From: Desulfovibrionaceae bacterium
GTDB taxonomy: Bacteria; Desulfobacterota; Desulfovibrionia; Desulfovibrionales; Desulfovibrionaceae
NCBI GenBank assembly: GCA_015709205.1
Contig: JACCQO010000010.1
Location: forward strand, 54,571 to 118,570
Reading direction: 5' to 3'
DNA: 64,000 nt
The position numbers were made by a program, and so were the translations under genes. The notes beneath the pieces were generated by a model. That model saw nothing but the letters and a program-made list of their open reading frames with translations, had not been told where the DNA came from and made no database searches. Below, piece after piece: positions 23,664-58,008 of this stretch; within the stretch, counting starts at the first letter, position 1; every line of letters starts with the position of its first letter.

Positions 23664-23672
23664 GAGACGACA

Positions 23673-24503: not shown

Positions 24504-24505
24504 GC

Positions 24506-25030: not shown

Positions 25031-25212
25031 ACTTCCGCCGTCGGCCGGGACCGCGTCGCCCGCGGTCCCGGGCGCCATGCCGGACGGTCGGGGCGGGCGG
25101 CCGCGCGTTTGCCCCCGTTTGCGAGCGGACGCCCGCCCCGGCAGCACGGACGCCGTGCGAACCGGAACCACCACGCCCGGCGCGCCGCCGGGCGAGCCCA
25201 AGGAGAAGCGTC

Positions 25213-25461
25213 GTGAGTACGACCGAATCGAAAAAGAGCTACGTGACCACCGTGGAAGAGGCCCTGTGCAAGGCCTGCGGCTACTGCGCCGAGAGCTGTC
25301 CCAAGGACGTCTTCGAGCCCGCGGACCATCTCAACGAGCAGGGCTACACGCCCTTCGTGGCCGCGCACACCGAGAACTGCATCGGGTGCCTGAACTGCCT
25401 GGCCCTATGCCCGGACTTCGCCATCACGGTGGAGGAGGCCGAAGGGGCCGCAGCGAAATAG
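25213..25461 (+). CDS. korD: 2x[4Fe-4S] ferredoxin-like delta subunit (KorD-like)
   Basis: An 82-residue protein with two classical clusters: CKACGYCAESCP and CIGCLNCLALCP. It is probably the electron-transfer subunit of the KorABC enzyme. It begins with GTG at 25213, with AAGGAG 8 nt upstream; no ATG fits. A 182-bp gap after korC is unusual for a tight operon and could carry a processing site or separate promoter, but none is clear. Confidence 0.9.
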   Translation: MSTTESKKSYVTTVEEALCKACGYCAESCPKDVFEPADHLNEQGYTPFVAAHTENCIGCLNCLALCPDFAITVEEAEGAAAK

Positions 25462-25666
25462 CGACCGCCGCCCCCGCGCAGGCCCAGGGGGACGCACGGC
25501 CCACGGGGGAACCTCCGCCGTCCCCCGGGCGCGGCGCGCCGCCGATTGCCCGGCGCGCCGCGCCCAAAGGGCGGCAGGCGAGGAGGATTCGCAGGCGGGG
25601 CGGGCGGGATGGACTTTTCAACGGACCGAGGTTGTACTCGCCGTTGCACACACAAGGAGCATGGCC

Positions 25667-28551: not shown

Positions 28552-30561
28552 TCACTCGTATTCGATGTTGCTGGCGCGCAGCATGCGCTGGCCGCGCGGC
28601 GAATCGACCACGGCCTCCAGGGCCTGGATGACCGTGTGGTCGTACTTGGTGTCGGCCATCTGCCAGAGGATCTGCACGGCCTCGCGCGCGGTCTTGGCCT
28701 TGCGGTAGGAACGCTTCTGCACCAGGGCGCTGAAGGTGTTGGTCGCGCCCAGGATGCGCGCGGGCATGAAGATGTCGTCCCCGCGCAGCCCGTTGGGATA
28801 CCCCGTGCCGTCCAGGTTCTCCTGCAGCTGCCAGATGGTCTCGGTGATCGGCAGGTGGAACCGGATGCCCTCGAGGAGGCGGCAGGTGTGCTCCACGTAG
28901 CGCTGCATCTCGCGGATCTCCTCGGGCGTGAGCTTGCCCTGCTTCTCCATGATCTCCTTGGGCACGAAGGTCTTGCCCACCTGCGAGAGGATCGCGGCCG
29001 CCTCCACGGTGGAGCAGTCCTCGTCGCTGAGCAGCAGCGTCTCGGCCACCTCCATGGCCAGCTTGCGCAGCAAGGCGGTGTGGCCGTCCAGAAAGGGCAC
29101 GCTCTCCACCGCGCGCACCAGGGCGTCGATGATCTGCTGGCGCATCTCGATGTTCAGGCTGTTCTGGGCCCGCTCCTCGGTGACGTCGCGGAACACCAGC
29201 AGGGTGTGCTCGGCCTGCTCGCCGAGCGCGACCCGGGAGGCCCAGGCCTCGAAAAGGATGGGCCTGGCCCCGCGGTAGACCGCGATCTCCTGGGTGTAGG
29301 CCGCATCGGACATGGCCAGCATCTGGTCGCCGTGCGCCAGGGCCGCGGCCTCGTCCGGGTTGAAGAGTTCCGCCACGGTCAGCCCCAAGGCCACGGTCGG
29401 CGACTTGCCGCACAACGTTCCGAAGGCCCGGTTGACGTACTCCACCCGGCCGCTTTCGGCGTGGCGCAGGCAGACCGGCACGGGCAGGGCCTCGGCCACG
29501 GCCCCGAGCAGGGCATAGCCCCGGCGCAGGGGCTCGACCTCCTCCTTGAGCCCCCGGGCGATGCGCCGGTAGCGCAGCCGGCTGGCGAAGAGCGCGGCCG
29601 TGCTGGTGAACAGCAGGGCGACCAGCCCGCCGGCGACCAGCAGCGCCAAGGAGACCAGTTCGTAGCCGCGCAGTTCCCCGGCGAGCCGGGCGCGGCCGGT
29701 TTCCGCGGCCAGCCACCAGCGCACCGCGGGCAGCGAGGTCGCCGTGGAGTAGACCTCGTCCGCGCCCTTGAGGTCCGTGCGCGGGCCGAAGCGCACCTCC
29801 TCCACGTCCGCCAGCGAGACCTCCACCGGTTCGAGCTTGAGCGAGTCCGGATAGGCCGGGGCGATCTCCTCGAAGACCGGGGAGCCCATGTCGTCCGCGC
29901 CCTGCTGCACGAGGTGCACGGTGGTGGAAAAGCGCAGGCCGCGCGCGGAGCCCAGGAAGGCGCGCAGCACGTTCTGCAGCGGGATGACGACCACGAGCAC
30001 GTGGTCCGGCGAGGCCGAATCGGACAGAGCGCCCGTGGGATAGACCGGGATGTACAGGTCCGAGACCAGGCCGCCCTTGTAGGCGTAGAGCGGCGAAAAG
30101 AACGGCACGCGCGTCTGCACCACGCTGCGGATGCTCTCGAAGTAGGAGTTCTCCGTGGCGTCGAGCTTGCCCATGGTCGTGGCCAGGAGGTTGCCGTTCA
30201 CGCCGAAGAGGTGCCCGGCCAGAAACCCGGCCGAGGCCACGAAGTTCTCGAAGTCCTCCTGGGCGCGGTCCTTGCGGTCGGCCTTCATGGACGCGAAATT
30301 GGCGATGGCCCCGCGGAAGATGCGCGCCTTGGCCAACTCCCGGGCGCGGACCACCCACTCCACGAGCTGGGTGGAGATCATCTCCGACTGGGAGGCGAGC
30401 ACGTCCGCCTGGTACTGGCGGACCTCCTCGGTCAGGGCCTCGACCCGCTGGTCGCGGAGCATGCCCGCCGTGTGCCAGGCCCCGACCCCGACCACGAGAA
30501 AAAAGCAACAGAGCACGAAGGCCGTGCCCCGCGACTGGGTCTTGAAGATCTTCTTCTTCAT
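28552..30561 (-). CDS. Membrane sensor protein: periplasmic Cache-like domain, PAS and degenerate HD-GYP domain
   Basis: 669 residues. TM1 is at about 12-32, a periplasmic Cache-type region at 40-295, TM2 at 300-328, PAS at about 350-470 and an HD-GYP fold at 475-640. The GYP signature survives (DGTGYPNGL), but every metal ligand I can place is gone: the HD pair is SQ (AAAILSQVGKTFVP), the HH before DGTGYP is QEN, and the VADVYDAL Asp residues are TNTFSAL. It is therefore probably a cyclic-di-GMP receptor or signalling module rather than a phosphodiesterase. It is last in the adhesin secretion operon, 24 nt after the fusion-protein gene, hinting that it controls export or adhesin display. Confidence 0.88.
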   Translation of the reverse strand: MKKKIFKTQSRGTAFVLCCFFLVVGVGAWHTAGMLRDQRVEALTEEVRQYQADVLASQSEMISTQLVEWVVRARELAKARIFRGAIANFASMKADRKDRAQEDFENFVASAGFLAGHLFGVNGNLLATTMGKLDATENSYFESIRSVVQTRVPFFSPLYAYKGGLVSDLYIPVYPTGALSDSASPDHVLVVVIPLQNVLRAFLGSARGLRFSTTVHLVQQGADDMGSPVFEEIAPAYPDSLKLEPVEVSLADVEEVRFGPRTDLKGADEVYSTATSLPAVRWWLAAETGRARLAGELRGYELVSLALLVAGGLVALLFTSTAALFASRLRYRRIARGLKEEVEPLRRGYALLGAVAEALPVPVCLRHAESGRVEYVNRAFGTLCGKSPTVALGLTVAELFNPDEAAALAHGDQMLAMSDAAYTQEIAVYRGARPILFEAWASRVALGEQAEHTLLVFRDVTEERAQNSLNIEMRQQIIDALVRAVESVPFLDGHTALLRKLAMEVAETLLLSDEDCSTVEAAAILSQVGKTFVPKEIMEKQGKLTPEEIREMQRYVEHTCRLLEGIRFHLPITETIWQLQENLDGTGYPNGLRGDDIFMPARILGATNTFSALVQKRSYRKAKTAREAVQILWQMADTKYDHTVIQALEAVVDSPRGQRMLRASNIEYE

Positions 30562-30585
30562 CCGTTGGTTCCCCTTGCCCGCGCC

Positions 30586-31881
30586 CTACCGCGTGCGGTG
30601 CTCGGAAAGCGCCCCGCGCATGCCCCGCAGGACGGGGGACAGCAGGTAGTCGAGCACGGTCTCCTCGCCCGAGAGGATGTTGACCTCCACGATCATGCCC
30701 GGGAGGAAGTCCGCGGCCTTGTGCGCGTCGCCCTTCACCGTCTCGAGGATTACCCGGTAGTACCAGGTGCGCGTCACGTCGTCGAAATAGGTCTTGGCCG
30801 AGATGTTCACGATCCTGGCCAGGAGCATGGTGTCCTCGGAAAATTCGTAGCGCGACGGACGGATCTTGGCGGACATGCCGTTCCAGATCTTGGTCCGGTC
30901 GCCGGGCTGCACCTTGCCCTCGATCTGGATGGAGGCGGTCTTGGGCACGATCTCGGCCAGGGCCTCGCCCGAGCGCACGATGCCGCCCACGGTGTTGGCG
31001 CTGAGCTTGTAGATGGTCCCGTCGATGGGCGAGCGGACCACGCTGCGCACGATCTGCTCGTTGGCCGCGTTGACCTCCTCGGTCACGGCCTGCAGCTCGG
31101 AGCTCACGGTGCTGATCTCCTCGCGCACCTCGCTGAGGAAGTCGAGCCTCTCGCGGTTGATGCGCTGCCTAAGCTCCTGGATCTTGAGGTCGTACTCCTC
31201 GCGCTTGCGCGAAACCTCGTCGATGCTGGTCACGATGCGGGCCAGGTCGGCCTTGCGCTGCAGCAGGAGCTGGCGCGAGCCGATGCCGCGCTCGACCATG
31301 GGCGCGAGCATGTCGTGCTGCTGGCGGATTACCTTTTCCTCCTCGCGCATGTTGGCCATGTGGTTCTCGCTGGAAACCAGCGCGGCCTGGGTCTGGTCGA
31401 TCTGGGTCTGCAGGATGCGGATGCGCTCGGCCAGGGCCTCCTCGCGGTAGCGGGCGAACTGCAGCTCGCTGAGCTCCTCCTCGCTCTTGGCCCGGGCCGC
31501 GAACTCGGCCACCGTGCCTGCGCTCTCGGCGGCCAGCCGGTCGAGCTTGGCGCTCAGGCGCTTCTGCTTGATCTCGGACTTGTTGCGCTCCTTGGTGATC
31601 ATGGTGTTGGCGATGGTCACCAGGGGCTGCCCGGCCTCCACGTCGTCGCCCTCCTGCACGAAGACCTGCTCCACCACGCCGCCCTCGTAGTGGCCCACGA
31701 TCTTGTCCGTCAGGTTGGTCTCCACCACGCCCTGGGCGCGCACGGTCTTCTCGATGGTGCAGTTGGACGCCCAGACCAGGAATACGACCAGGAACACGGC
31801 GATGACCACGAGCACGACCAGCTTGCCCAGGCTCTGCTCCACGGACCAGACGAAGTCCCGCATGCGGAGGTCCTTGCGCAT
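30586..31881 (-). CDS. Type I secretion membrane-fusion protein, HlyD/LapC family
   Basis: 431 residues. A short cytoplasmic N-terminus precedes one membrane helix (about 20-40), a lipoyl-like half (VRAQGVVETNL and GGVVEQVFVQEGDDVEAGQPL), a long coiled coil (about 100-290), the second lipoyl half (VRSPIDGTIYKL) and a beta-barrel end (LPGMIVEVNILSGEETVLDYLLSP), the usual HlyD C-terminus. It bridges the ABC exporter to TolC. It lies 3 nt after the exporter gene. Confidence 0.95.
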   Translation of the reverse strand: MRKDLRMRDFVWSVEQSLGKLVVLVVIAVFLVVFLVWASNCTIEKTVRAQGVVETNLTDKIVGHYEGGVVEQVFVQEGDDVEAGQPLVTIANTMITKERNKSEIKQKRLSAKLDRLAAESAGTVAEFAARAKSEEELSELQFARYREEALAERIRILQTQIDQTQAALVSSENHMANMREEEKVIRQQHDMLAPMVERGIGSRQLLLQRKADLARIVTSIDEVSRKREEYDLKIQELRQRINRERLDFLSEVREEISTVSSELQAVTEEVNAANEQIVRSVVRSPIDGTIYKLSANTVGGIVRSGEALAEIVPKTASIQIEGKVQPGDRTKIWNGMSAKIRPSRYEFSEDTMLLARIVNISAKTYFDDVTRTWYYRVILETVKGDAHKAADFLPGMIVEVNILSGEETVLDYLLSPVLRGMRGALSEHRTR

Positions 31882-31884
31882 GGC

Positions 31885-34245
31885 CTACCCCGCCCCCTGC
31901 CCCAGCTTGGCCAGCACCGCCTCCTTGCTGCCGTCGGCCACCACCCGCCCCTGGTCGATGACCAGGATGCGGTCCACGATCTGGAGGATGTGCGGCCGGT
32001 GCGTGACCACGAGCATGGTCCTGCCCTCCATGCCCTGGCGCATGCGCTGGATGAAGACGTGCTCCTGGGTGGAGTCCATGGAGCTGGTGGGTTCGTCGAG
32101 CAGCAGGAGCGGCGGATCGTTGACCAGGGCCCGGGCGATGGCCACGGCCTGGCGCTGGCCGCGCGAAAGGTTCTTGCCGCCCTCGAGGATGGGCATCTTC
32201 AGCCCCAGGGGGTGGCGGGAGACGAAGGTCTCGATGCCGGAGATGGCCAGGGCCTGGACCATGGTCTGCCGGGCCACCTTGCGCGCGCCCATGAGCAGGT
32301 TGAACTCCAGGGTGCCCTGGAAGAGCACCGGCGACTGCGGGACCACGCCCATGAACTCGCGCACGGTCTCCACGTCCAGGTGGGCCATGTTGTAGCCGTC
32401 GAGCAGGACCACGCCCTCGGAGGGGCGCGCCAGCCCGGCCAGGAGCTTGAGCAGCGTGGTCTTGCCGCTGCCCATGGGGCCGATGATCCCGACCTTTTCC
32501 CCGGCCTTGACCGAGAAGGAGACGTTCTCCAGCACGTAGGGCGCCTCGGGCGCGTAGCGGTAGGAGACCGAATCGAAGGTCACGTCGCCGTCGACCCGCT
32601 CCACCTTCATCCGCGCGGCCTCGCCGGATTCCTTGTCCAGCTTGAGCAGCCCGTAGAGGTCCTTGTAGGAGCGGCGCGCGAAGAGATAGGTGGTGATCAG
32701 GTTGGCCATGCCCGCGCACACGGCGATGCACCGGCCCGAGAGGACCATGGTCGCCAGCAGCCCGCCGCTGCTCATGGACCCGCCCGCGATGAGGAAGAAG
32801 GCCACCACCAGGAGCCCGGCGGAATTGAGCTGCCCGAGAAACCCGGTGGCCATGGAGCAGCGCGTCTGGGCCAGGCGGTACTGCGAGGCCATCTCCCCGG
32901 CCTTCTCCACCTCCGTGGCCCAGCGGGCCACGAAGAGCCGCGTGGCGTTGGTCACCTTGATGGACTCCACGCCCTGGAACACCTCGTTGAGAAACGAGCT
33001 CTTGCGCGACTGCAGCTTGCTCTGGGCCGAAACGTTGCGGTCGATGAAGAACCCGTAGACCAGGGAAACCGCGAGCACGAGCAGGGAGATGGTCGCGGGG
33101 ACCAGAAAGAGCAGGCCACTGTTCAGGTAGATGACGAAGAGGAAGAAGAACAGGAAGACGAAGTCGATGGAGCCGATGACCAACTGGGTGGTGAAGAGCG
33201 CCTTGATGCGCGAGAACTCCTGGACCACGTGGGTCAGGTGCCCGGTGGAGGACGGCAGCGCGGAAAAGACCGTGTCCAGCACCTGGCCGAGCAGGAAGGG
33301 TTCGGCCTCGCGCTCCACGCGCAGGGCGGCCTTTTCCACGAGCACGGTGCGCACGTTCTTGAGCACGAAGTCGAAGAGCAGCACGATCACGGCCCCGGTG
33401 ACCAGCACGCGCAGCGAATTCTCGGCCAGGTTGGGCAGGATGCGGTCGTAGAAGATGCCCATGAGCAGCGGCACCACCAGGGTGAAGCAGTGGATGAGCA
33501 CCGTGGCCAGGACCACCTGGGCGTACAGCGGCCACATCTTGAGCACCTGGCCCAGGAACCAGTTGGGGCTCAGGAAGGGGGCCTCGTCGGTCTCGAAGAC
33601 CGTGGCGAAGGAGCAGCGCCACTCCTTGAAGCGGTCCAGCTCCCCGCCGCCGTTGCGCAGCATGGAGGTCTCGCCGTCCCAGACCTCCAGGATGTGGCCC
33701 TGGCGCTTCTCGACCACGGCGAAGGAGCCGTCCGCGTACTGCACCAGGGCCGGGAGGTCCTCGTCGGCGAAGCGGGGCGGCCGCGGGCCCAGGGTGGCCT
33801 GCAGCCCCATGTTGTCCGCCTGCATCTGAAGGTAATCGCGCAGGTTGGCCGCGTTGCCCAGCTCCAGGGTGCGGCTGGAGGTGCGGATGCCGAAGAGTTC
33901 GGCGACGCGCTCCAGGCACGCGGCCACGGGCGCGCCCTGGGGCTCGGGCTGCGGCCCGCAGTCGGGGGCCGGTCCGGGCGCGGCACCCGGCGCGCCGTCA
34001 ACAGCGCCATCGGGCGCGGGGCCGGTCGGCGCGGAGGAGGCGGCGGCCGCCTCCGGAGCGCCGCCTGGAGCGGAGGACTGGGAGGACACCGCGAAGGACG
34101 CGGCCGCCGGGCCGACCGCCGGATGCGCGGCCCCGGCCGCCCCCGGGCCCGCCGCGGCCGCCGGCGCGGACCCCGGTCCGTCGGCCGCAACGGCCTGCGC
34201 CGCCACGTCCGCCGACTCGATCCTGTCCCGTTCCTTGAACACCAA
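31885..34245 (-). CDS. Type I secretion ABC transporter, HlyB/LapB family
   Basis: 786 residues. It has an inactive C39-like domain (106-225; no convincing catalytic Cys-His pair), six membrane helices (about 240-520) and a nucleotide-binding domain: Walker A GPMGSGKTT, Q-loop VPQSPVLFQGT, signature LSRGQRQ, Walker B LLLLDEPTSSMD, and the switch His in VVTHRP. It powers export of the adhesin from the cytoplasm. Odd feature: residues about 15-105 are an Ala/Pro/Gly-rich extension, absent from standard HlyB. It is followed by the fusion protein after 3 nt and preceded by the MotB/OmpA-like gene. Confidence 0.95.
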   Translation of the reverse strand: MVFKERDRIESADVAAQAVAADGPGSAPAAAAGPGAAGAAHPAVGPAAASFAVSSQSSAPGGAPEAAAASSAPTGPAPDGAVDGAPGAAPGPAPDCGPQPEPQGAPVAACLERVAELFGIRTSSRTLELGNAANLRDYLQMQADNMGLQATLGPRPPRFADEDLPALVQYADGSFAVVEKRQGHILEVWDGETSMLRNGGGELDRFKEWRCSFATVFETDEAPFLSPNWFLGQVLKMWPLYAQVVLATVLIHCFTLVVPLLMGIFYDRILPNLAENSLRVLVTGAVIVLLFDFVLKNVRTVLVEKAALRVEREAEPFLLGQVLDTVFSALPSSTGHLTHVVQEFSRIKALFTTQLVIGSIDFVFLFFFLFVIYLNSGLLFLVPATISLLVLAVSLVYGFFIDRNVSAQSKLQSRKSSFLNEVFQGVESIKVTNATRLFVARWATEVEKAGEMASQYRLAQTRCSMATGFLGQLNSAGLLVVAFFLIAGGSMSSGGLLATMVLSGRCIAVCAGMANLITTYLFARRSYKDLYGLLKLDKESGEAARMKVERVDGDVTFDSVSYRYAPEAPYVLENVSFSVKAGEKVGIIGPMGSGKTTLLKLLAGLARPSEGVVLLDGYNMAHLDVETVREFMGVVPQSPVLFQGTLEFNLLMGARKVARQTMVQALAISGIETFVSRHPLGLKMPILEGGKNLSRGQRQAVAIARALVNDPPLLLLDEPTSSMDSTQEHVFIQRMRQGMEGRTMLVVTHRPHILQIVDRILVIDQGRVVADGSKEAVLAKLGQGAG

Positions 34246-34275
34246 ACGCGCGCTCCGTCGTTCCGGCCCGGCCCG

Positions 34276-35133
34276 CTAGCGGACCACGCTGATCACGACC
34301 TGGTTGGTTCCGGGCACGGCTTCCTCCAGGGCCCGGAACTTGATCTTGGACTTGGGAATCCCGCCCTCCTCGTTGGCCACGCGGATCAGGCCGTAGAGCC
34401 GCTTGAAGGACACGGAGTTGGCCGTGCTCGAGGGCACGCCCTCGAAATTCAGGGTCGCGGTCAGCTCCAGCCCGTTGGCCGCGATGGCCTCCTTGTTGGG
34501 CGCGAGCCAGGCCAAGAGTTCCTGCTTGGTGGCGTCCTCCAGGGTGCTGGTGAGCTTGTTGTAGAGGATGATGATGCGGTTCTTGGGGTCCAGGCCGCGC
34601 ACGATCCTGGTCACGAACTCCGGCGTCTTGGGCTCCAGGCCGGATTTGACCTCCACGTCCTTGCCGCGCGAGGCCTCCAGCTCGGCGATGCGCGCCAGGG
34701 CCTTTTCCAGGGCCAGCTTGGCGGCCTTCTCGTCCTGCACGGCCTTGCCGGAATCGCGCGCCGCGGCCAGCGCGGCCTCCAACTGCCTCTTCAGCGCCGC
34801 CTTCTCCATCTCCAGCTTTTCCAGCTCCAGGACCGAGGCCGGGGAATTGGGCGCCAGGTCCTTGGCGTCCAGCAGGGCCTGGGTGGACAGGGCCTTCTCC
34901 AGCCGCTCCTTGGAGGACAGGGGCGCGGCGTAGGCCATGGCCTGCGAGGAGGCCACGACCTGCGTGTCGCCGGTGGTCTGCGTGGGGGCCGCGTCCTTGA
35001 GCGCGACGATGTAGGAAAGCGTCCCCACCACGAGCACCATGAGCAGGGTGAAGAACACCATCATCATCAGGACCGTGGACAGGGCATCGACGAATCCCGG
35101 CCAGGGCGGTCCCGCATCGTGGTCTTGAGCCAT
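34276..35133 (-). CDS. MotB/SiiA-like inner-membrane protein with divergent OmpA-like C-terminus
   Basis: 285 residues. The N-terminal helix reads GFVDALSTVLMMMVFFTLLM, aligning with the MotB helix around its proton-carrying Asp (YAD-FMTAMMAFFLVMW); Asp16 sits at that position. A coiled coil occupies about 95-165, then a C-terminal region (about 185-285) that resembles a divergent OmpA fold without the usual peptidoglycan-binding signature. With the MotA/TolQ-like protein at the other end of the operon it could form an ion channel. Salmonella SiiA is the closest functional analogue I know. The gene is between the adhesin and the ABC exporter. Confidence 0.82.
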   Translation of the reverse strand: MAQDHDAGPPWPGFVDALSTVLMMMVFFTLLMVLVVGTLSYIVALKDAAPTQTTGDTQVVASSQAMAYAAPLSSKERLEKALSTQALLDAKDLAPNSPASVLELEKLEMEKAALKRQLEAALAAARDSGKAVQDEKAAKLALEKALARIAELEASRGKDVEVKSGLEPKTPEFVTRIVRGLDPKNRIIILYNKLTSTLEDATKQELLAWLAPNKEAIAANGLELTATLNFEGVPSSTANSVSFKRLYGLIRVANEEGGIPKSKIKFRALEEAVPGTNQVVISVVR

Positions 35134-35156
35134 ACGTTCTCTCTCGCTGTTTGTCG

Positions 35157-35177
35157 CGCCGCGCTCCGGGCGCGGCG
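35157..35177 (-). promoter_or_regulatory. GC hairpin in the adhesin-motB-like intergenic gap
   Basis: An 8-bp perfect inverted repeat CGCCGCGC / GCGCGGCG with a 5-nt loop lies between the adhesin stop and the next gene's ribosome site. There is no T-tract, so I read it as an RNA-stability or attenuation element that could lower downstream expression relative to the adhesin. Confidence 0.4.
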
Positions 35178-35203
35178 GTGCGTCCAGCGCCTTGCGGCGC
35201 GGT

Positions 35204-44200: not shown

Positions 44201-47200
44201 GTTCAGGGCCGGGGTGTACTCGAAGCTCCACTTGCCGGTGCTCCAGTCGATGTTCGTGACCCGCACCGGCGCGCCGCCGTCCTGGCTGATGTACAGGACC
44301 ACGTCCTGGTCCGAGAGGTCGGCCAGGCGGCCCTGGAGCTGCAGGGTGGCGGCGTTGGTGCGCAGGTCCTGCGCGCCGCTGTCGTTATTCAGCCAGAGCT
44401 CGTGCCCGTCCATGAGCACCGGGGCGCGGCTGTCCACGGTGATGTCCAGGGTCTTTTCCGCGGTGTTGCCGCTGGCGTCCTCGGCCACGGCCAGAAAGCG
44501 GTAGCTGCCGTCGCCGGAAAGGTCCGCGTCGAGCACGGTGCAGCTCCAGGCCGTGGACGCGCCCGCGGGCTGCGTCACCGCGCCATCGACCTCCTCGTAG
44601 TCGCCCCAGGAGCCGTCGGAGAGCCGCCGGGCCACGTAGAGGGTCACGGTGCTGCCCTGCTCGGCCACGGTGCCGGTGAGCGTGAAGGCCTTGACCGGGT
44701 CGGAGAGGTTCGCGCCCGTGTTGGTGACGTTGTCCGTGTCGCCCGCCGAGGGATCGGCCGTGCCGGAATAGAAGTAGCCGCCCGCGCTGTCGTCCGCGTC
44801 GATCAGGTCCACGGAAGGCGCGCCGGTGCTGGCGTCGATCTTGACGTAGAGCGGCGAGGTCTCCACCGTGTTGCCCGCCGCATCCTCGAGCACCAGGGTG
44901 TAGGCGTAGGTCGCGCCGTCCGTGAGCGAGCCGGCGGCGTAGGTCCAGGTCGTGCCGGAGATCGTGGCCCGGCCCATGAGCGTGCCGTCCCGGTAGACGT
45001 AGGCGGCCACCGGGTCCTGGACCGCGTTGTAGCCCGTGAGCTCGCCCTGCAGGGTGATGGACGACTTGTCGAGATAGGTGTGGCCCTCGCCGTCCACGCG
45101 CCACGTGCCCGCGGTGATCAGCGGGTTGGCCGCGCCGGCTCCCGCGCCCGCGGGGGTGGAGTCGTTGGTGGTGCTGGCGGCGTTGAGCGCGAGCGTGGGC
45201 ACGGCCTGCACCGTGGTGTCGCGCGTGACCTCCAGGACCACGGCCGCGCCGCGGTTGCCCGCCGCGTCCACGGCCACGGCCACGAACTCGTAGGTCCCGT
45301 CCGCGTCCACGCCGCCCGAGGGATCGGTGTCGAAGGCGTGGGTGTAGTTCCAGCGCCCCGTGGAGGCGTCGGCCGTAACCACGTCGAGCAGGGTGCCGGG
45401 GGAGGCCTCGCTGTAGTCGCTGCCCGGGCCGACGCGGTAGATCTCCACCCGCGCGCCGGCCTCGGCCTCGCCGGTGAAGTACAGGGAATCAGCGCTGGTG
45501 CGGTCGTCGCTGTTGGAGCCCACGGCGGCCAGCCCCAGGGTCCCGGCGATGGAATCCGCCGTGTCGGAGCCCGCGTGCAGGTCCAGGGTCGTGCCCTGGG
45601 GCGCGTGGCGGTCCACGTCCACGGAGAAGGTGTCCGAGACCTCGTTGCCCGCGCTGTCCGCGGCCGTGGCCCGGAAGGTCACGGTCTCGGTGGCGGCCGC
45701 GCCCAGGTTAGCCTTGAGCGTGTTGACGTTGACCGTGTAGGTCCAGTTGCCCGCGCCGTCCTGGGTCCAGTTGGTCCCGGAGGCCGCGGTGGAGCCGTTG
45801 GCGATGGCGTAGAGCGAGGTCCAGGTGGAGCCGTCCAGGGAATATTCGATGAGCACCGGGGCGGACACCGTGGAGGAGCCGTGCAGGGTCAGGTCGGCCG
45901 CGCCGGTGTAGTTGTCCGAGCTGGTGCCCAGGTCGTCGGACGGGTTCGCGGCGTCGTAGTAGGTGTCGTCGGCGGCCGCCAGCCCGAAGGAGCCGATGGC
46001 GGGCGGGGTGCGGTCCACGGTGATGGTCACGTCGTCGCCCACGGTCACGTTGCCCGCGCGGTCCACGACCTCCACGTGGAAGGTGAAGTCCGCCGACTGC
46101 CCGGCGTTGATGCCCGAGGCGAAGTCGAAGGTCCAGGAAACGTTGCCGTCCCCGTCGGTGGCCACCTGGGCCACGCCGATCTGCACGGCCCCGCGGTAGA
46201 CGTTCACGGCCACGTTGTCGGCCTCGTCCGTGGCCTCGGCGTCCAGGGTGCCGGTCAGGGTGAAGTTGGGCTCGCGGGTGATCGAGTCCGTGGCGTAGGC
46301 GGCGTTGAGCGCGGCCAGCGCCGGGTTGGCGCTCACGAAGCGGGCGTCGATGGCCGAGTTGTCCTCCGCGGCCAGCTCCGTGGCCCCGACCGTGGGCGCG
46401 GTGGAGTCGAAGAATACGGTGATCGGCGCGCTGTCCGTGACGTTGCCCGCCGGGTCCACGGCCCGGGCCACGAAGGTGTGCTCGCCGTCCAGGGTGAAGT
46501 TGGTCAGCCGCGCGTCCGTGGCGTCCAGGTCGATGGACCAGGAACCGGTCTCGCCCCCGGCCTCGGGCACCAGGTCGCGGTACTCGGCGTAGCTGATGAC
46601 CTGGGTCACGCCGTTGTAGGTGTGCACCAGGTAGACGGTGGAGCCGTCCTCCACGTTGGCGCCCGTGAGCGTGAGCTTGTTGTTCTCCACGCTCAGGCTG
46701 GTGCGGTCGTCCGTGGTGCCGGTCAGCCCCGCGCCGTAGTCGATGGTCGTGCCGTGGGCCGGGCCCGAGGAATCGGATTCCAGGTCGATGGTCGAGACCG
46801 TGGTGGTGCGGTCGATGGTCGCGGTGTACTGGGTCGCGGAGGAGGGCTGGTTGGCCGCGTCGTAGGCCGTGACCGTGAAGGTGTAGTCCGTGCCCGTGTG
46901 CGTGGTGCTGGAGGTGTCCGTGAGCAGGACCTCGGGCGAGGTCCAGAGCCCGTCGCTCACCGGGATGTGCTCGCTGCCCGTGGTGGTGGTCAGGGTCCGG
47001 GTCACGCCGCCCTCGTCCACGTAGGTGACGACCACGTAGGCCGCGCCGGGCGCGGTGCCGTGCACGCGGACCAGGCCGTCGCGGTCCGCGACGTCCGCGG
47101 CGGACCCGTCGTCCAGGCCGCGCGTGATGTCGTCGGAGGTGACGCCGGTGTTGTAGGAGTCCACCAGGTCCACGGAGGGCGCGGCGGGCGGATCTCCGGC

Positions 47201-49882
47201 CACCTTGATGTAGACGACCTCGGTGGTGGTGTTGCCCGCCGCGTCGGTGGACAGGATCGTGACCTTGTTCATCTCGCCCTTGGTCAGGGCGAAGGAGTCG
47301 CCGTCGGCGTTGTTGCCGAAGGTGTAGCTCCAGGAGTCCGAACCGGTCACCAGCGTGGTGGACGAGCCGTCGCTGAGGATGATGGTCACGTCCGTGCCCG
47401 CTTCGCACGAGCCGCCGAACGTGGGCTTGACCGGCACCACGTAGACGGGGTCGCCCGTGGTGTCGATGACCGCCTTGTCCGCGTCGGTCAGGGACGCGTC
47501 GTCCGCGTCCACGCGGTAGTCCTCGGGCTGGCCGTCGAAGGCCGGGTCGTTGGGGTCGGTGACCAGGTCCAGCCCGGCCAGGGTGGGGGCGATGGTGTCG
47601 TAGGTGAAGTCCGTGGACTCGTAGGCCTCGCCGTCGAGCTTGTCCGTGCGTCCCGAGTTGTCGACCACCACCACGGTATAGGAGTAGTCCTGCGTGGCGC
47701 CGCTGTAGCCCGCGGCCAGGGCGTTCCGCAGCGCGAGGGTGTGCGCGGGCGAAAGCGTCCACGAGTCGCCCTGGCGGCTGGCCAGGTAATAGGTGTCGTT
47801 GTCCATGTCCGGAGAGGCGCCGTCGGAGGTCAGGTAGACCCGGACCTCCTTGACGTTGTCCAGCTCCGCGCCCGCGGCGAAGGAGATGGTCAGCGCGGGA
47901 TTGTTGGTGATCGGATCGGCCGGGGACTCGGACGAGCCCGTGTCCTCCACGCTGAGGATCGGGCTGGGCGGCCGGTCCGTGTCGATCTTGAAGTCCAGGG
48001 TGGTGGTCTCCTGGTTCCCGGCGGCGTCCATGTTGGTGAAGGTCGCCTGGTAGGTGCCGTTGGCCAGGGTCGCGGGGGAGGCAAAGGTGTAGGAGCTGGT
48101 GCTCTCGTCCCAGCGGATCTCCAGGGTCGCGGCCACGGGCAGGCCGGTGGCCGTGTCCACGATGGCGAAGGTGCCCGTGGAGTGGGCCTCGCCCGTGAGC
48201 GTGAAGACCGGATTGCTCTCGCCGATGTAGTAGTAGCCGCCCACCGGATCGACCATGCCGGTGATGGCGATGTGCGGATCGACCACGTCGGTGTCGATGA
48301 CCAGGGTCTTCTGAATGGCCGTGGTGGCGTTGCCCGCGTCGTCGAAGGCCTGGACCACGAGGGTGTAGGTGCCGTCCGCGAGTTGGGCGTTGTTGCCCGC
48401 CACGCTCAGGGAGCCGAAGTCGAAGTCCCCGGCCGCGAAACTCCACGCCCCGCCCGCGGGCGTGGTCTCGCCGACCGTCACGCCGTTGATGGTCACGCGC
48501 ACGGTGGCGTCGTTGCTGGCCGTGCCGCCGAGCGCGAACTGGTTGTCGCTGGTGATGTAGTCCGAGTCGGTCCCGGTCATGTCCGGGTTGGCGGTATCCT
48601 CCACCAGGGTCAGGGCGGAGCCCAGGACCGGGGCCACGGAGTCGATGACCACGCCGGAGAGCGTGGCCGCGTCGGCCGGGGTGCGGTTGCCGGCCACGTC
48701 CACGGCCGCGAGGCGAAACTCCCAGGTGCCGTCCTCGAGCGCGCTGCCGTCCGGAACGGTGTAGGACCACGTGCCGTCGCTCTGCACCGTGGTCGTGCCG
48801 ATCTGCTCGAAGTCGCCCGTGCCGTCCTTGCGGGCCTCGACGATCAGCGTGGTGCCGACCTCGGAGAGGTCGCCGGAGGCGTACTCGCCCTTGAGCGTGG
48901 GCGTGGTGTCGCAGGTGAGCTTGTCCGCGTTGCTCACGCCCAGGTCCGAGGCCGCGGCCAGGGTGATGGACGGCAGCGTGGGCGGCGTGGTGTCGATGAC
49001 CAGTTCCTCGGTCTTGGACACGGCGGTCAGGCCGTACTTGGCGGCCTCCACGTAGACCTCGTAGGTGCCCTCGGCGTAGGACCCGCCGATCACGAAAAGG
49101 AATTCGCCCTCTTCCGTGGCCGTGGTCGTGGCCACGGCCGCGCCGTTGACGTAGAGGGTCACCTCGGCGTTGGGCTCGGCCGTGCCCTCGAACTGCGGAC
49201 TGGTGAACTTGGTCACGAAGTCCAGGGTGGAGCCGGAGTTGGTGTCCTCGGTCAGGGCGAAGTGCGGGGCCGCCAGGGTCGGCTCCTCGGGCTTCTCGGG
49301 CTCCTCGTCGTCGGCCGCGCCGAGCTTGTCCGTGGTGTTGGTGTTGATCACCGGCGAAATGTTGTCGTTGCGCTCGGCGTCGCCGCTCTTGTTGCTGGTG
49401 TAGTCGTTCTGCGCCCGGGAGGCGGACAGGATCTGCTGCTTGAGGTCCACCAGGGGGTCGGCCTGGGCCTGGGACACGTCGGCTTCGGTGCCGGGCTCGT
49501 CCGCGCCGTCCTCCTCCTCGGCCGCCTGCTCGCCGTCGGGCTGGTCCGTGTTGCCCTGGGCGTCCGGATCCTCCTCGTCCCGGGCGTCCCAGGAAACCTC
49601 GTCCTCCTCGTAGGGCTCCACCTGGGCCATCTCCGCGCGCTCGAAGAGCGCCTGGGAGTCGAGCGTGGCCCCGTTGGCGAAGTGCATGTTGACCTGCCCA
49701 TTGAGGCTCATGATGTTGCCCACGAACAGGAACACATGCTCCTCGTTGTCGTGGTCGATGAGCACGAGGTCGGCGCCGCGCAGGACGTAGCGGTAGTCCT
49801 CGGGGTTGCCCGGCACGTCGTAGGACGTGGAGGGCGCGACGCGTTCGCCTACATTGGAGTGGGGAGCCTTCTGGTCTGCCAT
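35204..49882 (-). CDS. Giant repetitive Ig-like-domain surface adhesin, type I secretion substrate
   Basis: 4,892 residues. An N-terminal domain (about 1-90, YRYVLRGADLVLIDHDNEEH) and an acidic linker (90-200) precede roughly 35 Ig-like modules of about 100-150 residues (205-4760). Each has a W(T/S)(F/Y) strand, an ADGTY-type turn, D-x-AGN and an I-D-T-x-P linker. The last 55 residues are acidic with no Lys or Arg and end VVVDEHLI. There are no RTX nonapeptides, so calcium folding of that type is not expected; the many Asp-rich linkers may bind calcium instead. No LapG-type TAAG site is evident. The family (BapA, LapA, SiiE) mediates cell-cell or surface adhesion. Neighbours are tolC, the exporter and MotA/B-like genes. 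GAGG precedes the ATG at 49882. Confidence 0.93.
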   Translation of the reverse strand: MADQKAPHSNVGERVAPSTSYDVPGNPEDYRYVLRGADLVLIDHDNEEHVFLFVGNIMSLNGQVNMHFANGATLDSQALFERAEMAQVEPYEEDEVSWDARDEEDPDAQGNTDQPDGEQAAEEEDGADEPGTEADVSQAQADPLVDLKQQILSASRAQNDYTSNKSGDAERNDNISPVINTNTTDKLGAADDEEPEKPEEPTLAAPHFALTEDTNSGSTLDFVTKFTSPQFEGTAEPNAEVTLYVNGAAVATTTATEEGEFLFVIGGSYAEGTYEVYVEAAKYGLTAVSKTEELVIDTTPPTLPSITLAAASDLGVSNADKLTCDTTPTLKGEYASGDLSEVGTTLIVEARKDGTGDFEQIGTTTVQSDGTWSYTVPDGSALEDGTWEFRLAAVDVAGNRTPADAATLSGVVIDSVAPVLGSALTLVEDTANPDMTGTDSDYITSDNQFALGGTASNDATVRVTINGVTVGETTPAGGAWSFAAGDFDFGSLSVAGNNAQLADGTYTLVVQAFDDAGNATTAIQKTLVIDTDVVDPHIAITGMVDPVGGYYYIGESNPVFTLTGEAHSTGTFAIVDTATGLPVAATLEIRWDESTSSYTFASPATLANGTYQATFTNMDAAGNQETTTLDFKIDTDRPPSPILSVEDTGSSESPADPITNNPALTISFAAGAELDNVKEVRVYLTSDGASPDMDNDTYYLASRQGDSWTLSPAHTLALRNALAAGYSGATQDYSYTVVVVDNSGRTDKLDGEAYESTDFTYDTIAPTLAGLDLVTDPNDPAFDGQPEDYRVDADDASLTDADKAVIDTTGDPVYVVPVKPTFGGSCEAGTDVTIILSDGSSTTLVTGSDSWSYTFGNNADGDSFALTKGEMNKVTILSTDAAGNTTTEVVYIKVAGDPPAAPSVDLVDSYNTGVTSDDITRGLDDGSAADVADRDGLVRVHGTAPGAAYVVVTYVDEGGVTRTLTTTTGSEHIPVSDGLWTSPEVLLTDTSSTTHTGTDYTFTVTAYDAANQPSSATQYTATIDRTTTVSTIDLESDSSGPAHGTTIDYGAGLTGTTDDRTSLSVENNKLTLTGANVEDGSTVYLVHTYNGVTQVISYAEYRDLVPEAGGETGSWSIDLDATDARLTNFTLDGEHTFVARAVDPAGNVTDSAPITVFFDSTAPTVGATELAAEDNSAIDARFVSANPALAALNAAYATDSITREPNFTLTGTLDAEATDEADNVAVNVYRGAVQIGVAQVATDGDGNVSWTFDFASGINAGQSADFTFHVEVVDRAGNVTVGDDVTITVDRTPPAIGSFGLAAADDTYYDAANPSDDLGTSSDNYTGAADLTLHGSSTVSAPVLIEYSLDGSTWTSLYAIANGSTAASGTNWTQDGAGNWTYTVNVNTLKANLGAAATETVTFRATAADSAGNEVSDTFSVDVDRHAPQGTTLDLHAGSDTADSIAGTLGLAAVGSNSDDRTSADSLYFTGEAEAGARVEIYRVGPGSDYSEASPGTLLDVVTADASTGRWNYTHAFDTDPSGGVDADGTYEFVAVAVDAAGNRGAAVVLEVTRDTTVQAVPTLALNAASTTNDSTPAGAGAGAANPLITAGTWRVDGEGHTYLDKSSITLQGELTGYNAVQDPVAAYVYRDGTLMGRATISGTTWTYAAGSLTDGATYAYTLVLEDAAGNTVETSPLYVKIDASTGAPSVDLIDADDSAGGYFYSGTADPSAGDTDNVTNTGANLSDPVKAFTLTGTVAEQGSTVTLYVARRLSDGSWGDYEEVDGAVTQPAGASTAWSCTVLDADLSGDGSYRFLAVAEDASGNTAEKTLDITVDSRAPVLMDGHELWLNNDSGAQDLRTNAATLQLQGRLADLSDQDVVLYISQDGGAPVRVTNIDWSTGKWSFEYTPALNGTGGTSLPEGAYSFVLYAEDRAGNLTTYPPSGAYDVVIDRSLGTPTIDLATGSDTYGGPARADADSDGQPDGAGDDYTGYVAAHGTDIHLRIDADSDSTVAVYVKNIAEGDVPFDPDNPENGYDLVQAGITYNVAAGKWDTLVFDASAYAGATSDVTLVVVSTDGSQTRSSSYTFTLDDQAPAAVAGDAIDWEPASATASHITAGAVVPNATNGKAIVLSGAVAGENQTDVTVEIFDSMKSTQAGSFGARISLGYATVHADGTWTFTAGSVASPVAEAYHQYVARIEDNAGNVTEVALADLLVDRSAPTAPALAMVGSQDTDYTDGLTETGGDGYYLDNKGTGTTTDDVYYNDNSSTPFRLTGLEVSPGTVLSISIDGGAAREVAITGSTHSFTPDAALADGSHTVQAWVTDAAGNVSETSTINFVVDTQNPTITDVGLDAASNTGSADDSAAPVTSAATPTIEGQSEARAAITVEVRDDKGTADTSDDTVYTASTVADASGHWEVAVSGESGAAIDVGSYDVTATAIDRAGNTTVAEDVASFSVDRTVEVADGSFGMVANEVNDTGFASDDRYTSENNPAFSWRAEEAVSVRLLFYKSGIATPVRSVAPPADELLTVDGVTTWYPSDLDLGDGSYTVKAVFTDLEAGNATDPDDNAVSFVIDTTSTALSANLADASDTGIDNDWVTNPALVGGGADTLTIEGSAPSGTTPATEVRVQVYLVAEDGTRTLLAPDNAATAYVATAADGTWSYDVSAAGFVPGENSLVIVSTDLAGNTTEIGRTLTIDTELDPGTVILAANNTVNSTVNGGLNNSGTYAEDGDFVDDKTNDVTPRLAGTTEPHSTVDLWLGDPDAGGVLIAANIPTDANGYWYFDVDTDARTSSGTPLLVAMASLADTSADLDGTDYTFYARVTDQAGNVADATGTITIDTQAPDADAATARISSAGVVVGEQTVYSDTGLDHTDGYTSSTRPTLTGSVPEGNTRVDVYVTYPGDADPTYIGTTKSNASGAWTLDIPNSAQALAGSPTGTDYEISIKVWDDAGNESDFGPAATVTVDNGFADMDADIAGVQPALIRFGAAFDAENADDAVYYDEADHTLKTNITSPVFDVTMEADCDTATLTLVRLGADGNPVSNPVVDVDIFVISLGPGHAGNPPADGHWDGVQFETSTGADALLDGEWRLVLTGTDKAGNSFEQTQDLHVNGVPPAFTVEIVEDQDGQAGVGLYAGDAILNAQTVHLSGEFAADVDYTEVKRVSIVNAVDSSVVATLEADEITGNTWVIEASNLAAGANTYSFYVVAEDNFGNEYWYPSSTDPLTYTVDRNAPVLNQESVDLVAADDSAGIIYATDHDDATTERTLHIAFGGEANSKVELILDGAVLFTAMPPDPSDSGAAYTYALGSSALAASLPPGVTYDAATNKFTYATDALEDGDWTFTVRVTDLAGNVSTQDLTVTVDNVYADASLTADLAAGSDQGSYGDNLVAHDDNLSNEVRPELSGNAEPGSAVRIYLQRFDSLEDARNDTAFAVSGDSWYDSTPHTEILVADDESSWSWDAVQQSGADAGQELADGYYKVIVVSEDQAGNRPAAETFVFGKDTDAPSEATDADALTFHLQDKVESTALLNEGSSTAGEVQAGEFVDSSGNPIWVTTNWMPTIGGVAETGSRLTIVLRIDGDLDGSLDDPTAIYKQLTIDVTDPDGNWSFDFSGEQTGAGRLADGIYTVEITCTDAAGNSTTLSPSPQFQISSIPPSPPTVRLAQEDDSYNAQTSNDGITNHNTGLTLTGTAEAGAVVRIYRSGAVADTNELITDAYLAAHLLATVTADASGIWTYELPTDFEEGGSDPDVVEDGSYRFFVGSDYFNGNTYYSLQEVNAEGQALINADGSAILRQPEEILEDDGTATGTYTYPDYVLEVDTALATPTFELGLILDMDTSKTEVERMSNSSRMDSGIGDQWRTPEEIAAGKYLGESDDFWQTPGELAAEGHADSTYNDWIVKTSGPTIEGTVEAGSIVYVDRWMVADLTDDGVENPLAQWVQVGVVEQESTADGTWRFVFPAEYENAQYDVRIRVVDQAGNTFVGTTENGGRHTITIDAEIQDTVLDLPSSQDTELLWDGVATGTAWGSIDDAANLVIVAADGTTRVLDYVHKGHLSGDFESGNADDLTTENNLLLSGAVEAGSRMYLTDTRAGVTVAITPVLVVDPAAALDDASATEAYYVKVNDSGDVGTWVWLNATAFNAAYGADYDGVYFHIQADGSWEYRTGELTDAKHAYTIENIDLAGNRAVTTPLAVTVDHDFASAAIGLSQSSDAGPFGNDDPAYDDRITNDDTPSVRLYGSSGATYLLYVYRVNEDGTVGENVNADGAPVATGVHASGVDTWVELDFATYGDGGYQLRLVNVSESGHVSEAIYPPTEADGTYVADDDWDVGSSTHPLVIDTVAPVIPDQAAIEANPDKVGDYYAHVRDGDLADPVNEWNTPVVMSNGQPLPIIISGDAVDVDGTGIKADLITNDTTPTIQVFVEPGTMIAVSGMGYSSYLTDSDNDGIITLDPSTARNDGNPYADGTYAFTIRFGDIAGNITDTTATFSLTIDSHGPSASIGLDDASDTGTFAVDNVTNDTTPTLSGIVSADAIRYEIEVGGTIIERHVGDADFGTLVTDAGGNQHYEWTYTPTLENGEYDVSITAWDRAGNATGDGLDAYHPDNPETVTHDVPLIVHDTGALDLYAGCEQNRSGTRIYLDVDWSASDAYNDADNVYAGPNHLIFTYHYLDGSTSTETVEMTLGETEYSSSLRTDDNYSYIEFKFVDSAGNESEVASVDIGSGPDADGVYHIDHVSGGLDDIPAVDPTPDPTPAAETVDVEFELGGHLSDDNTTDSLTLDDVAHVRATITGDVDGDGDQDVVNVDATLADDGSWSLHFRQELAATGDFHLDLTALKADGSEVTLATDHDLTYDFSVLTEQMAQDQGADTQVLFDADAENNQAAPADTPDPGVEATVTIHVDPVVVDEHLI

Positions 49883-49954
49883 GGGATCAACCTCTTCGCG
49901 GTTCGCGGTCGGGGTCGGTGATCGCTGCGTGTTCCGGGCCTGCGAGCTCCGGGG

Positions 49955-51772: not shown

Positions 51773-51810
51773 TCCGTACGAGTCCGAACAGGGTGCGGTG
51801 AGAGCGCGAG

Positions 51811-52884
51811 CTATTGCTTCGACGTTTCCAGGAGCGATTCCAGTACCGAGACCATTTGCCGGGTATCCTTGAGCAGGCGTCCGGTGAGGTCGTTGTTGAG
51901 CCCCAGTTGCTTCTTGGTGTCCGCGACCAACCCCTCCATGGCGCGGTAGACCTCGCCGCCCTGGCGCTGCTGGATGGTCATCTCCAGCAGGAACTTGTTC
52001 GATTCGCCCAGGGCCTTGTTCAGGTCCACGTTGTTCTTGGCGAGCTGTTCGGCGATGGCGCGCATCTGCCCGGAGAAGTCGCCGTCGGCGGGAAAGGCCA
52101 CGCCCCCGCCCGCGGCCACGCCGTTCTCCTGGGACCCGGCCAAGCGCACCTGGGCGCTCAGCCAGCCCTCCAGCAGGCGCTTGAGCTGCTCGTGCACGCG
52201 GCTGAGGACCACGGCCTGGATGCTGACCACGGCGCTGCCCGCCAGACCGAACAGGGACGTGGAAAAGGCCGTGCCCATGCCCTGCATGGGCTCCTTGAGG
52301 CGCGTGATCAGCTCGATCATGATCTGCAGGATGGAGCTGTCCGAGGAGTCCTTCAGCCCGCCGGCCAGCTTGCTGAGGATCACGCCCATGGACTGCAGGG
52401 TGATGGTCAGGCCCAGGAAGGTGCCGAGCAGGCCGAGCAGCACCAGGAAGCCGCCCAGAAAGGTGATCAGCTTGCTGCGCGAGGCCACGCCCTGCTCGAA
52501 GCTCTCGACCATGGAGTGCGTCTCGCTGCTGGAGCTCACCACCGCCCTGCCGCTCTCCTTGATGGAGCCGATGAGCGGCTTGAGCACCGAGCCCAGGAAC
52601 CCGAACTTGACCTGGTCCACGTCGAAGTCGACGTTTTCGGGGTCCTCGTACCATTCGGTGAAGCGCAGGAAGATGTCGATCTCCCGGCAGGCCGCGATGA
52701 TGTAGTAGAGCGCCAGGCAGATGCTGCCCCAGACGACCACGATGATGACCGAGTTGACGGGGATGGACGTCCGGTACAGGGAGGCGATGAAGCCGAAGCT
52801 GGACCAGATTCCGGCGAGCAGCAGGAACAGGAAGCCGATGGAGAACCACAGGTAGAGCTTGTGAATGTTCTGCGAAGAGAGCAT
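51811..52884 (-). CDS. MotA/TolQ/ExbB-like proton-channel protein
   Basis: 357 residues with four membrane helices (about 11-32, 44-66, 138-166, 205-230). The third and fourth carry the Gly/Leu-rich GLLGTFLGLTITLQSMG and MGTAFSTSLFGLAGSAVV patterns of the MotA/TolQ/ExbB domain, and the cytoplasmic C-terminus is coiled coil. Such proteins use the proton gradient with a MotB/TolR/ExbD partner; that partner is probably the product of 34276-35133. It is the first gene of the leftward operon. SiiB is the counterpart in Salmonella SPI-4. Confidence 0.88.
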   Translation of the reverse strand: MLSSQNIHKLYLWFSIGFLFLLLAGIWSSFGFIASLYRTSIPVNSVIIVVVWGSICLALYYIIAACREIDIFLRFTEWYEDPENVDFDVDQVKFGFLGSVLKPLIGSIKESGRAVVSSSSETHSMVESFEQGVASRSKLITFLGGFLVLLGLLGTFLGLTITLQSMGVILSKLAGGLKDSSDSSILQIMIELITRLKEPMQGMGTAFSTSLFGLAGSAVVSIQAVVLSRVHEQLKRLLEGWLSAQVRLAGSQENGVAAGGGVAFPADGDFSGQMRAIAEQLAKNNVDLNKALGESNKFLLEMTIQQRQGGEVYRAMEGLVADTKKQLGLNNDLTGRLLKDTRQMVSVLESLLETSKQ

Positions 52885-54099: not shown

Positions 54100-54228
54100 A
54101 TGCGCAGTCATTTCCTTATCGTCGTGCGTCCGGCCGCCCCCGCACGGACCGTCGCCCCCGCTCGGGCCGTCGCCCGCGCACGGGCCGTTGCCCGCGTCCG
54201 GGCCGTCGCCCGCGGAGTCCGGCCATGA
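54100..54228 (+). CDS. Possible 42-residue leader peptide overlapping hyfB start
   Basis: A short open frame opening MRSHFLIVVRPAAPA and continuing as Ala-Arg-Val repeats; its TGA overlaps the hyfB ATG (ATGA). No ribosome site is visible before its ATG, and most of it is encoded by the 18-bp tandem repeat. It may be a coupling peptide or simply an artefact of GC-rich DNA. Confidence 0.2.
   Translation: MRSHFLIVVRPAAPARTVAPARAVARARAVARVRAVARGVRP
54145..54216. repeat. Four 18-bp tandem repeats upstream of hyfB
   Basis: Copies at 54145-54162, 54163-54180, 54181-54198 and 54199-54216 follow the form CGGGCCGTCGCCCGCGNN with a few substitutions. The block ends 8 nt before the hyfB ATG, so it replaces the normal ribosome-binding region; copy number could affect hyf translation. 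Confidence 0.9.
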
Positions 54229-56315: not shown

Positions 56316-56324
56316 GGGAAAGCC

Positions 56325-57287: not shown

Positions 57288-57368
57288 CCGCGCGCCGCTC
57301 CGAGATCTTCTCCGCCCGTTTTTGCAACGGCTTCCGCAACCCGTGCGCCCCGCGCACCGGAGACTGAC

Positions 57369-58007: not shown

Positions 58008-58008
58008 C

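Follow-up and report, generated by a model that had tools for sequence, protein, structure and literature searches.

A giant-adhesin secretion operon of a Desulfovibrionaceae bacterium encoding a putative SiiAB-like stator and a DvhD-type receptor

A seven-gene operon for the export of a giant adhesin occupies positions 52884 to 28552, on the minus strand, of a 64,000-nucleotide stretch of contig JACCQO010000010.1 from a Desulfovibrionaceae bacterium; this whole stretch is referred to as the window, and positions are counted from its first letter. In addition to a type I secretion system (T1SS), the operon encodes a MotA-like and a MotB-like membrane protein and a receptor of the DvhD type. 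We read it as a biofilm-type operon that joins stator control like that of SiiAB, from Salmonella pathogenicity island 4 (SPI-4), with a DvhD-type receptor for cyclic di-guanosine monophosphate (c-di-GMP) and does without a protease, a reading to which we give a probability of about 0.55. SiiAB is known in Salmonella and DvhD in Desulfovibrio vulgaris, and their combination in one operon is new as far as we have searched. In the literature, mainly that which is openly accessible, we found no report of these bacteria having a MotA/B-like gene pair in an operon of this kind, and searching the text of PMC5646257, PMC11784015 and PMC13090378 for MotA returned nothing. The genes and domains, beginning with the first gene, are as follows.

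51811..52884, minus strand: MotA/TolQ/ExbB-like stator subunit (SiiB-like), 357 residues, from a PF01618 match, a ZorA match and conserved transmembrane (TM) residues
49955..51772, minus strand: TolC-family outer-membrane channel, 605 residues (PF02321, 3.9e-44; TIGR01844, 1.4e-49, under its cut-off)
35204..49882, minus strand: giant adhesin of 4,892 residues with immunoglobulin-like (Ig) repeats and without repeats-in-toxin (RTX) motifs (21 Big_13 stretches; isoelectric point 4.05; no GGxGxD)
49613..49882, minus strand: N-terminal domain of the adhesin, approximately residues 1-90, a putative periplasmic retention domain (its end set by eye)
34276..35133, minus strand: MotB/SiiA-like stator subunit, 285 residues, with a single TM helix holding Asp16, from TM conservation and weak ExbD and NF006543 matches
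34279..34653, minus strand: predicted SiiA/OmpA-like periplasmic domain of the MotB-like protein, residues 161-285, from an AlphaFold2 (AF2) model and Foldseek
31885..34245, minus strand: type I secretion ATP-binding cassette (ABC) permease/ATPase, LssB-type, with an uncertain TTG start (TIGR03375, 4.4e-176, under its cut-off)
30586..31881, minus strand: HlyD-family type I secretion adaptor (TIGR01843, 8e-81, over its cut-off)
28552..30561, minus strand: DvhD/BfsD-type receptor with a periplasmic region like the dCache of DvhD, a PAS domain and a degenerate HD-GYP domain (SQ for HD), from PDB matches and site comparison

The gaps between the genes, from the first to the seventh, are 38, 72, 70, 30, 3 and 24 bp, and profile matches place the complete ABC, HlyD and TolC exporter trio in the operon. 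An earlier sequence-only reading of this DNA had listed a MotA/TolQ-like protein, a MotB-like protein with Asp16, TolC, HlyD, an ABC exporter, a 4,892-residue Ig adhesin and a signalling protein; that list stands, all of its members being encoded by minus-strand genes 3-72 bp apart. The same reading put the two channel genes at opposite ends of the operon, which was wrong: the MotA-like gene is the first and the MotB-like gene the fourth of seven, and the two bracket the TolC and adhesin genes. An open reading frame of 327 codons at 49887-50870 was judged spurious, as it overlaps the TolC gene in another frame.

Among 199 genomes of the order Desulfovibrionales, 11 gave a match to the MotB-like protein. 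Those 11 also matched the MotA-like protein, with one further weak match (G078, E 5.8e-4; E, expectation value), and a search with residues 1-200 of the adhesin recovered exactly the 11 genomes that have both channel proteins. These carriers, namely the window genome and ten relatives, come from three genera, eight of them from a single one (g14), so that counts among them are not independent. The order of the seven genes is identical in all ten relatives, whose loci were read and which belong to the same family; the locus of G172 was pieced together from two contigs, each of which holds part of the adhesin, and that of G180 lacks 2 kb of the adhesin interior. Because this order recurs in every relative read, the operon arrangement is not due to chance. 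The survey of other genomes that the sequence-only reading had proposed thus found the set kept, in the same order, in ten further genomes of the family. A scan of named genomes gave three loci, in two metagenome-assembled genomes of Pseudodesulfovibrio sp. and one of Desulfovibrio sp., and was not exhaustive, as the order-level collection held ten relatives.

The MotA-like and MotB-like proteins very probably form a SiiAB-like stator. The former matches PF01618 at E 3.6e-5 and 24.0 bits (cut-off 22.9), as do ten of the 11 members of its family at E <= 0.01, and its best sequence match in the PDB is ZorA (E 0.0083). Its third and fourth TM helices carry the motifs GLLGTFLGLT and GMGTAFSTSLFGL, and its C-terminal tail is approximately 125 residues long; GMGTAFSTSLFGL is invariant in the family and GLLGTFLGLT nearly so, eight relatives having GLMGTFLGLT. 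In the TM helix of the MotB-like protein, Asp16 lies within PPWPGFVDALSTVL and is invariant in all 11 sequences (window and ten relatives), as is the segment PPWPGFVDALSTVLMMMVFF that contains it. The MotB-like protein of the window has no Pfam match of its own; it matches NF006543 (PRK09039.1-2) at E 1.6e-9, yet scores 38 bits where the cut-off is 305, and Pfam ExbD is weakly matched by five of the 11 members (best E 0.0037).

A search of 394 genomes of the phylum with the MotB profile gave, apart from the window, three weak matches, one of which (G528) belongs to a real MotA-MotB pair, and the MotA profile gave one relative (G343) in 197 genomes at E <= 1e-5. Both G343 and G528 lie outside the family, and in each the protein encoded directly after a MotA-like relative has a matching MotB-type TM segment. 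Profile comparison yielded E 3.8e-15 for MotA and 2.5e-8 for the MotB TM segment in G528; in G343, a strong MotA match (2.7e-27) goes with a weak one for MotB (E 8.8e-5, probability 60). Neither stretch contains a match to the ABC, HlyD or TolC protein of the window. These adjacent pairs support the two genes of the window as separated halves of one stator, although they do not prove its assembly. Together with conservation within the carriers, they uphold the proposal of a conserved pair of stator-like genes.

A kinship of the MotB-like protein to SiiA is supported at the level of predicted fold and not at that of sequence. The cropped periplasmic domain was modelled with AF2 from four sequences at moderate confidence (predicted local distance difference test, pLDDT, 66.9; predicted template-modelling score, pTM, 0.62). 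When this model was compared with 350,542 PDB chains by Foldseek, chains A-E of SiiA (6QVP) took ranks 1-5 (E 1.4e-6 to 5.5e-5), with template-modelling scores of 0.76-0.82 on the target; OmpA-like domains and flagellar MotB (2ZOV, rank 14) came behind them. Assigning the periplasmic part to the peptidoglycan-binding type would likewise follow from the predicted fold. The likeness to SPI-4 claimed by the sequence-only reading survives, therefore, in part: the parts list and the SiiA-like fold agree with it, and the lack of a SiiA sequence match and the different gene order do not.

The seventh product, which had been passed over as a signalling protein, is by its sequence a DvhD-type receptor. 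It matches the DvhD crystal structures 9RC0 (PAS/HD-GYP, 1.5e-51), 9RBZ (HD-GYP, 1.9e-39) and 9RC2 (dCache, 3e-9), which excerpts of PMC13090378 name as DvhD entries. In those excerpts DvhD is a catalytically dead HD-GYP protein, with SQ for HD, that binds c-di-GMP and cannot cleave it, and it reportedly controls DvhG, a protease of the LapG type that cleaves the adhesin at [T/A/P]AAG, past the retention domain. SQ replaces HD in all 11 receptors of the carrier operons and in all 19 receptors from loci with a LapG-type protease. Among the eleven c-di-GMP contact residues named in PMC13090378, P567, L577, Y621 and R650 are kept in 11/11 and Y652 in 10/11 carrier-operon receptors, whose best-conserved part is the HD-GYP domain, and the other six are changed; binding of c-di-GMP by the operon receptor is plausible. 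A receptor search at E <= 1e-30 found such proteins in 99 of the 199 genomes, the 11 carriers scoring at least 614 bits and the next best 278.

No match to PF06035, the family of the LapG/DvhG cysteine protease, was obtained in the window's own genome (98.4% complete), while 96 of the 199 genomes have one. It is lacking in seven of the 11 carriers versus none of the 88 other receptor-bearing genomes (Fisher p 2e-8, relatedness ignored); in this sample, a receptor-bearing genome without any PF06035 occurs only among the carriers. Where a carrier does have PF06035, every match lies outside the MotA/B locus. A simple genome-wide exclusion of LapG and MotA/B was considered and rejected as not significant, the contrast being confined to receptor-bearing genomes. 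In G147, the PF06035 gene of a separate adhesin locus (L095; G147:C1:3450702-3451086) matches in two neighbouring pieces, and the receptor, HlyD and ABC genes beside this broken gene match over their length.

Twenty stretches around PF06035 genes were used for comparison with the MotA/B loci. Fifteen have the order ABC, HlyD, protease, receptor, four have the protease and receptor without a matched exporter, and one (L082) has the protease with no query protein matched; a MotA- or MotB-like protein was found in none of the 20 at E <= 0.01. Between the MotA/B type and the 15 exporter-bearing LapG loci, the ABC proteins are 30-35% and the HlyD proteins 26-29% identical. In trees of the receptor, ABC and HlyD proteins, the two locus types fall on opposite sides of a well-supported branch; the trees are unrooted, with the receptor and ABC computed by a careful method and HlyD by a quick one only, and we make no claim as to which type is older.

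The adhesins of the two locus types were compared in the same way. GGxGxD is absent from the parts read of all 11 MotA/B-type adhesins (those of G180 and G172 being read in part), and the cleavage motif [TAP]AAG was found in none of the 11 within the first 400 residues. In the LapG stretches, an adhesin N-terminus was recognised in three of the 20 (L097, L099 and L100), and all three have [TAP]AAG at residues 100-129. Six large acidic adhesin-like fragments without an N-terminus were also present there, four with GGxGxD and two without, and the remaining stretches gave no adhesin by the filter used. A 400-residue stretch of the window adhesin had no match among PDB sequences, SiiE included, at E <= 1. 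By analogy with LapA and SiiE, its N-terminal domain may be kept in the channel. The open frame that holds the adhesin of G180, near 235612 of G180:C2, is 7,496 residues long, approximately half again the length of the window adhesin.

From these features we infer pairing of the two subunits, ion conduction, an effect on adhesin retention, c-di-GMP binding and a coupling of receptor to stator, which would work together as follows. The ABC/HlyD/TolC exporter would thread the adhesin out C-terminus first, a polarity borrowed from SiiE, and the N-terminal domain would stay behind in the channel. No recognised cleavage site or protease is present, and control of the retained end would for this reason fall to the SiiAB-like stator rather than to a cut of the LapG type. 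Ion flow by way of Asp16 may move or lock the cell-wall-bound SiiA-like domain beside the TolC conduit. The DvhD-type receptor would sense c-di-GMP and pass its state across the membrane to the stator or the exporter instead of to a protease; its position in the operon points to c-di-GMP as the signal that sets the stator's state. That the stator acts on retention or release of the adhesin we consider probable. Gating of the stator by the receptor is put forward tentatively. The fullest version, in which a c-di-GMP-gated, ion-driven stator replaces proteolysis and holds, pulls or releases an uncut adhesin, making attachment reversible and tying it to membrane energy, is possible at somewhat short of even odds.

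Several observations weigh against the reading of a protease-free operon under SiiAB-like stator control. The fold model depends on four sequences, an AF2 model of the whole MotB-like protein, from the same number, was set aside (pLDDT 49.8; nothing by Foldseek at E <= 1e-3), and the MotB-like family profile found no SiiA chain in the PDB up to E 10, the family's sequence search there returning mostly coiled-coil proteins (best E 0.26) and no SiiA, MotB or OmpA chain. The concentration of eight carriers in one genus weakens the independence of the counts. In the receptor, six of the 11 c-di-GMP contacts (K520, Y523, R569, K582, M646 and E668) are changed in all 11 carrier-operon sequences; several of these positions also vary among receptors from LapG loci. 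In four carriers (G147, G172, G180 and G189), PF06035 is retained at another locus, next to a second receptor, and PF06035 also occurs in four genomes that lack a receptor of this kind. Across all genomes, PF06035 occurs in 4/11 carriers versus 92/188 non-carriers (p 0.54), and if the broken gene of G147 is not counted (3/11) p is 0.22, neither being significant. Finally, of 127 receptor places, 88 are within 6 kb of PF06035, 11 are in MotA/B operons and 28 are elsewhere. All 28 are in genomes having LapG, and three of them lie 7-9 kb from a PF06035 gene. Eight of the 28 (L117-L124, with L124 among those three) were inspected; all follow ABC-HlyD genes and have neither MotA nor MotB, apart from one marginal MotA-profile match (E 0.0082) in the HlyD frame of L117. 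Receptors without an adjacent protease thus exist without MotA/B as well, and a missing neighbour protease does not by itself signify a new output. Such loci form a third type, ABC-HlyD-HD-GYP receptor with no LapG within 6 kb and no MotA/B, in genomes that have LapG elsewhere.

The constancy of the exporter genes as neighbours of the receptor, which follows ABC-HlyD closely whether a locus has LapG, MotA/B or neither of them, also suits an arrangement in which the stator energises or times retention as in SPI-4 and the receptor acts separately, on ABC, HlyD or another partner, with no gating. We think this rather unlikely: stator, receptor and exporter stand together in the window and in all ten relatives, and the known output of the D. 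vulgaris receptor, according to excerpts of PMC13090378, is a periplasmic protease, which was not found in the window genome.

An ordinary Lap/Dvh system, in which the receptor controls an adhesin-clipping protease, either unrecognised or a LapG in trans, and MotA/B are accessories, appears improbable. The relatedness of the operon receptor to DvhD would fit it, as would the presence of LapG elsewhere in four of the 11 carriers (in one as two pieces) and the 28 receptor places that lack LapG within 6 kb in genomes having it. Against these stand the absence of PF06035 from the window genome, one of the seven carriers in which no match was found, and that of [TAP]AAG from the first 400 residues of all 11 adhesins.

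An ion-driven stator of the rotary class tied to a surface adhesin also calls to mind GldLM, which moves SprB (excerpts of PMC9389320), so that the device might serve gliding-like surface movement instead of holding and releasing. This is very unlikely, as the seven genes include no candidate for a track or baseplate and the fold matched is that of SiiA, whose described role is retention. We give hardly any credence to a general envelope-energising pair of the Tol/Exb kind that lies in the operon by chance, to which PF01618, the weak ExbD similarity and the two outside relatives without a match to the window exporter proteins nearby would point, since the genes lie on either side of TolC and the adhesin both in the window and in each of the ten relatives read and were not found in the other 188 genomes of the order, except for one weak MotA-like match.

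The operon is flanked by genes of other kinds. Membrane-bound hydrogenase or complex-I-like genes (54225-61868, plus strand; two Proton_antipo_M, NADHdh and Oxidored_q6) start approximately 1.3 kb to its right, past its 5' end. On the left, plus-strand genes at 21752-28325 for a POR-domain oxidoreductase, an FAD-linked oxidase and CCG-domain proteins converge on its 3' end; we read these oxidoreductases as being of the lactate-oxidation type, and the host, judged by its relatives, as a sulfate reducer. A major facilitator superfamily transporter and a sodium:sulfate symporter family gene are at 12284-15378 (minus strand). Genes associated with clustered regularly interspaced short palindromic repeats (CRISPR) span 4578-9247, also on the minus strand, and include Cas1 (4578-6164; PF01867, 3.6e-100) and Csd1 (7232-9247; PF09709, 4e-141), the latter of which we take to indicate a type I-C system. 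Among gene frames guessed elsewhere in the window, Pfam matches were obtained for 0/10 in one set and 4/9 in another. An Rfam scan of 26000-56000 gave nothing at the gathering threshold, and hence no known riboswitch is present in that region.

In comparison with known systems, the membrane pair is like the 5:2 stators ZorAB, TolQR, ExbBD and MotAB in combining a PF01618 membrane protein with a single-TM partner that has an aspartate in its TM helix. It is unlike them in that the genes are split around TolC and the adhesin, the periplasmic domain is of the predicted SiiA type, and the seven genes of the operon include no nuclease, flagellar or TonB/Tol partner. With Salmonella SPI-4 (SiiA-F) the operon shares the T1SS trio, a giant non-RTX Ig-repeat adhesin, the MotA-like/MotB-like inner-membrane pair and the SiiA-like periplasmic fold, the SiiB counterpart being assigned by membership of PF01618 (MotA/ExbB/TolQ) and not by comparison with SiiB itself. 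It differs in its gene order (MotA, TolC, adhesin, MotB, ABC, HlyD, receptor, and not that of siiA-siiF), in lacking a sequence match to SiiA among PDB chains, and in adding a DvhD-type receptor, which does not figure in the six-gene siiA-F list in excerpts of PMC12607715. SiiA and SiiB are described, in the portions consulted of PMC6272769 and PMC12607715, as a proton channel controlling retention of SiiE; external acidification raises this retention and carbonyl cyanide m-chlorophenylhydrazone (CCCP) lowers it, and when siiA and siiB are lost, SiiE secretion is unimpaired but invasion suffers. Excerpts of PMC5466336 call the two proteins unique accessory proteins of the SPI-4 exporter, and those of PMC12607715 call their use of the proton-motive force unclear. 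A SiiAB-like pair in environmental sulfate reducers, if real, would provide a non-pathogen setting for that question, and biofilms of sulfate reducers have relevance to corrosion and metal removal (excerpts of PMC5646257 and PMC11784015).

The Dvh/Bfs (Lap-like) operon of D. vulgaris, DVU1012-1020, also has a giant T1SS adhesin whose N-terminal domain is of the retention type, and it encodes a dCache-PAS-HD-GYP receptor shortly after ABC and HlyD; its side of the comparison is taken from published descriptions and not from its own sequence, and a figure legend in the excerpts of PMC13090378 counts DVU1014-1016 to the T1SS. The window operon differs in being without DvhG/LapG, [TAP]AAG and RTX repeats and in having the MotA/MotB-like genes. 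This suggests that members of one c-di-GMP receptor family may serve two different means of adhesin control, in one case a protease and in the other an ion-driven stator. A likeness that the sequence-only reading had overlooked is that to the Dvh/Bfs biofilm operon of D. vulgaris, which the locus resembles no less than it does SPI-4.

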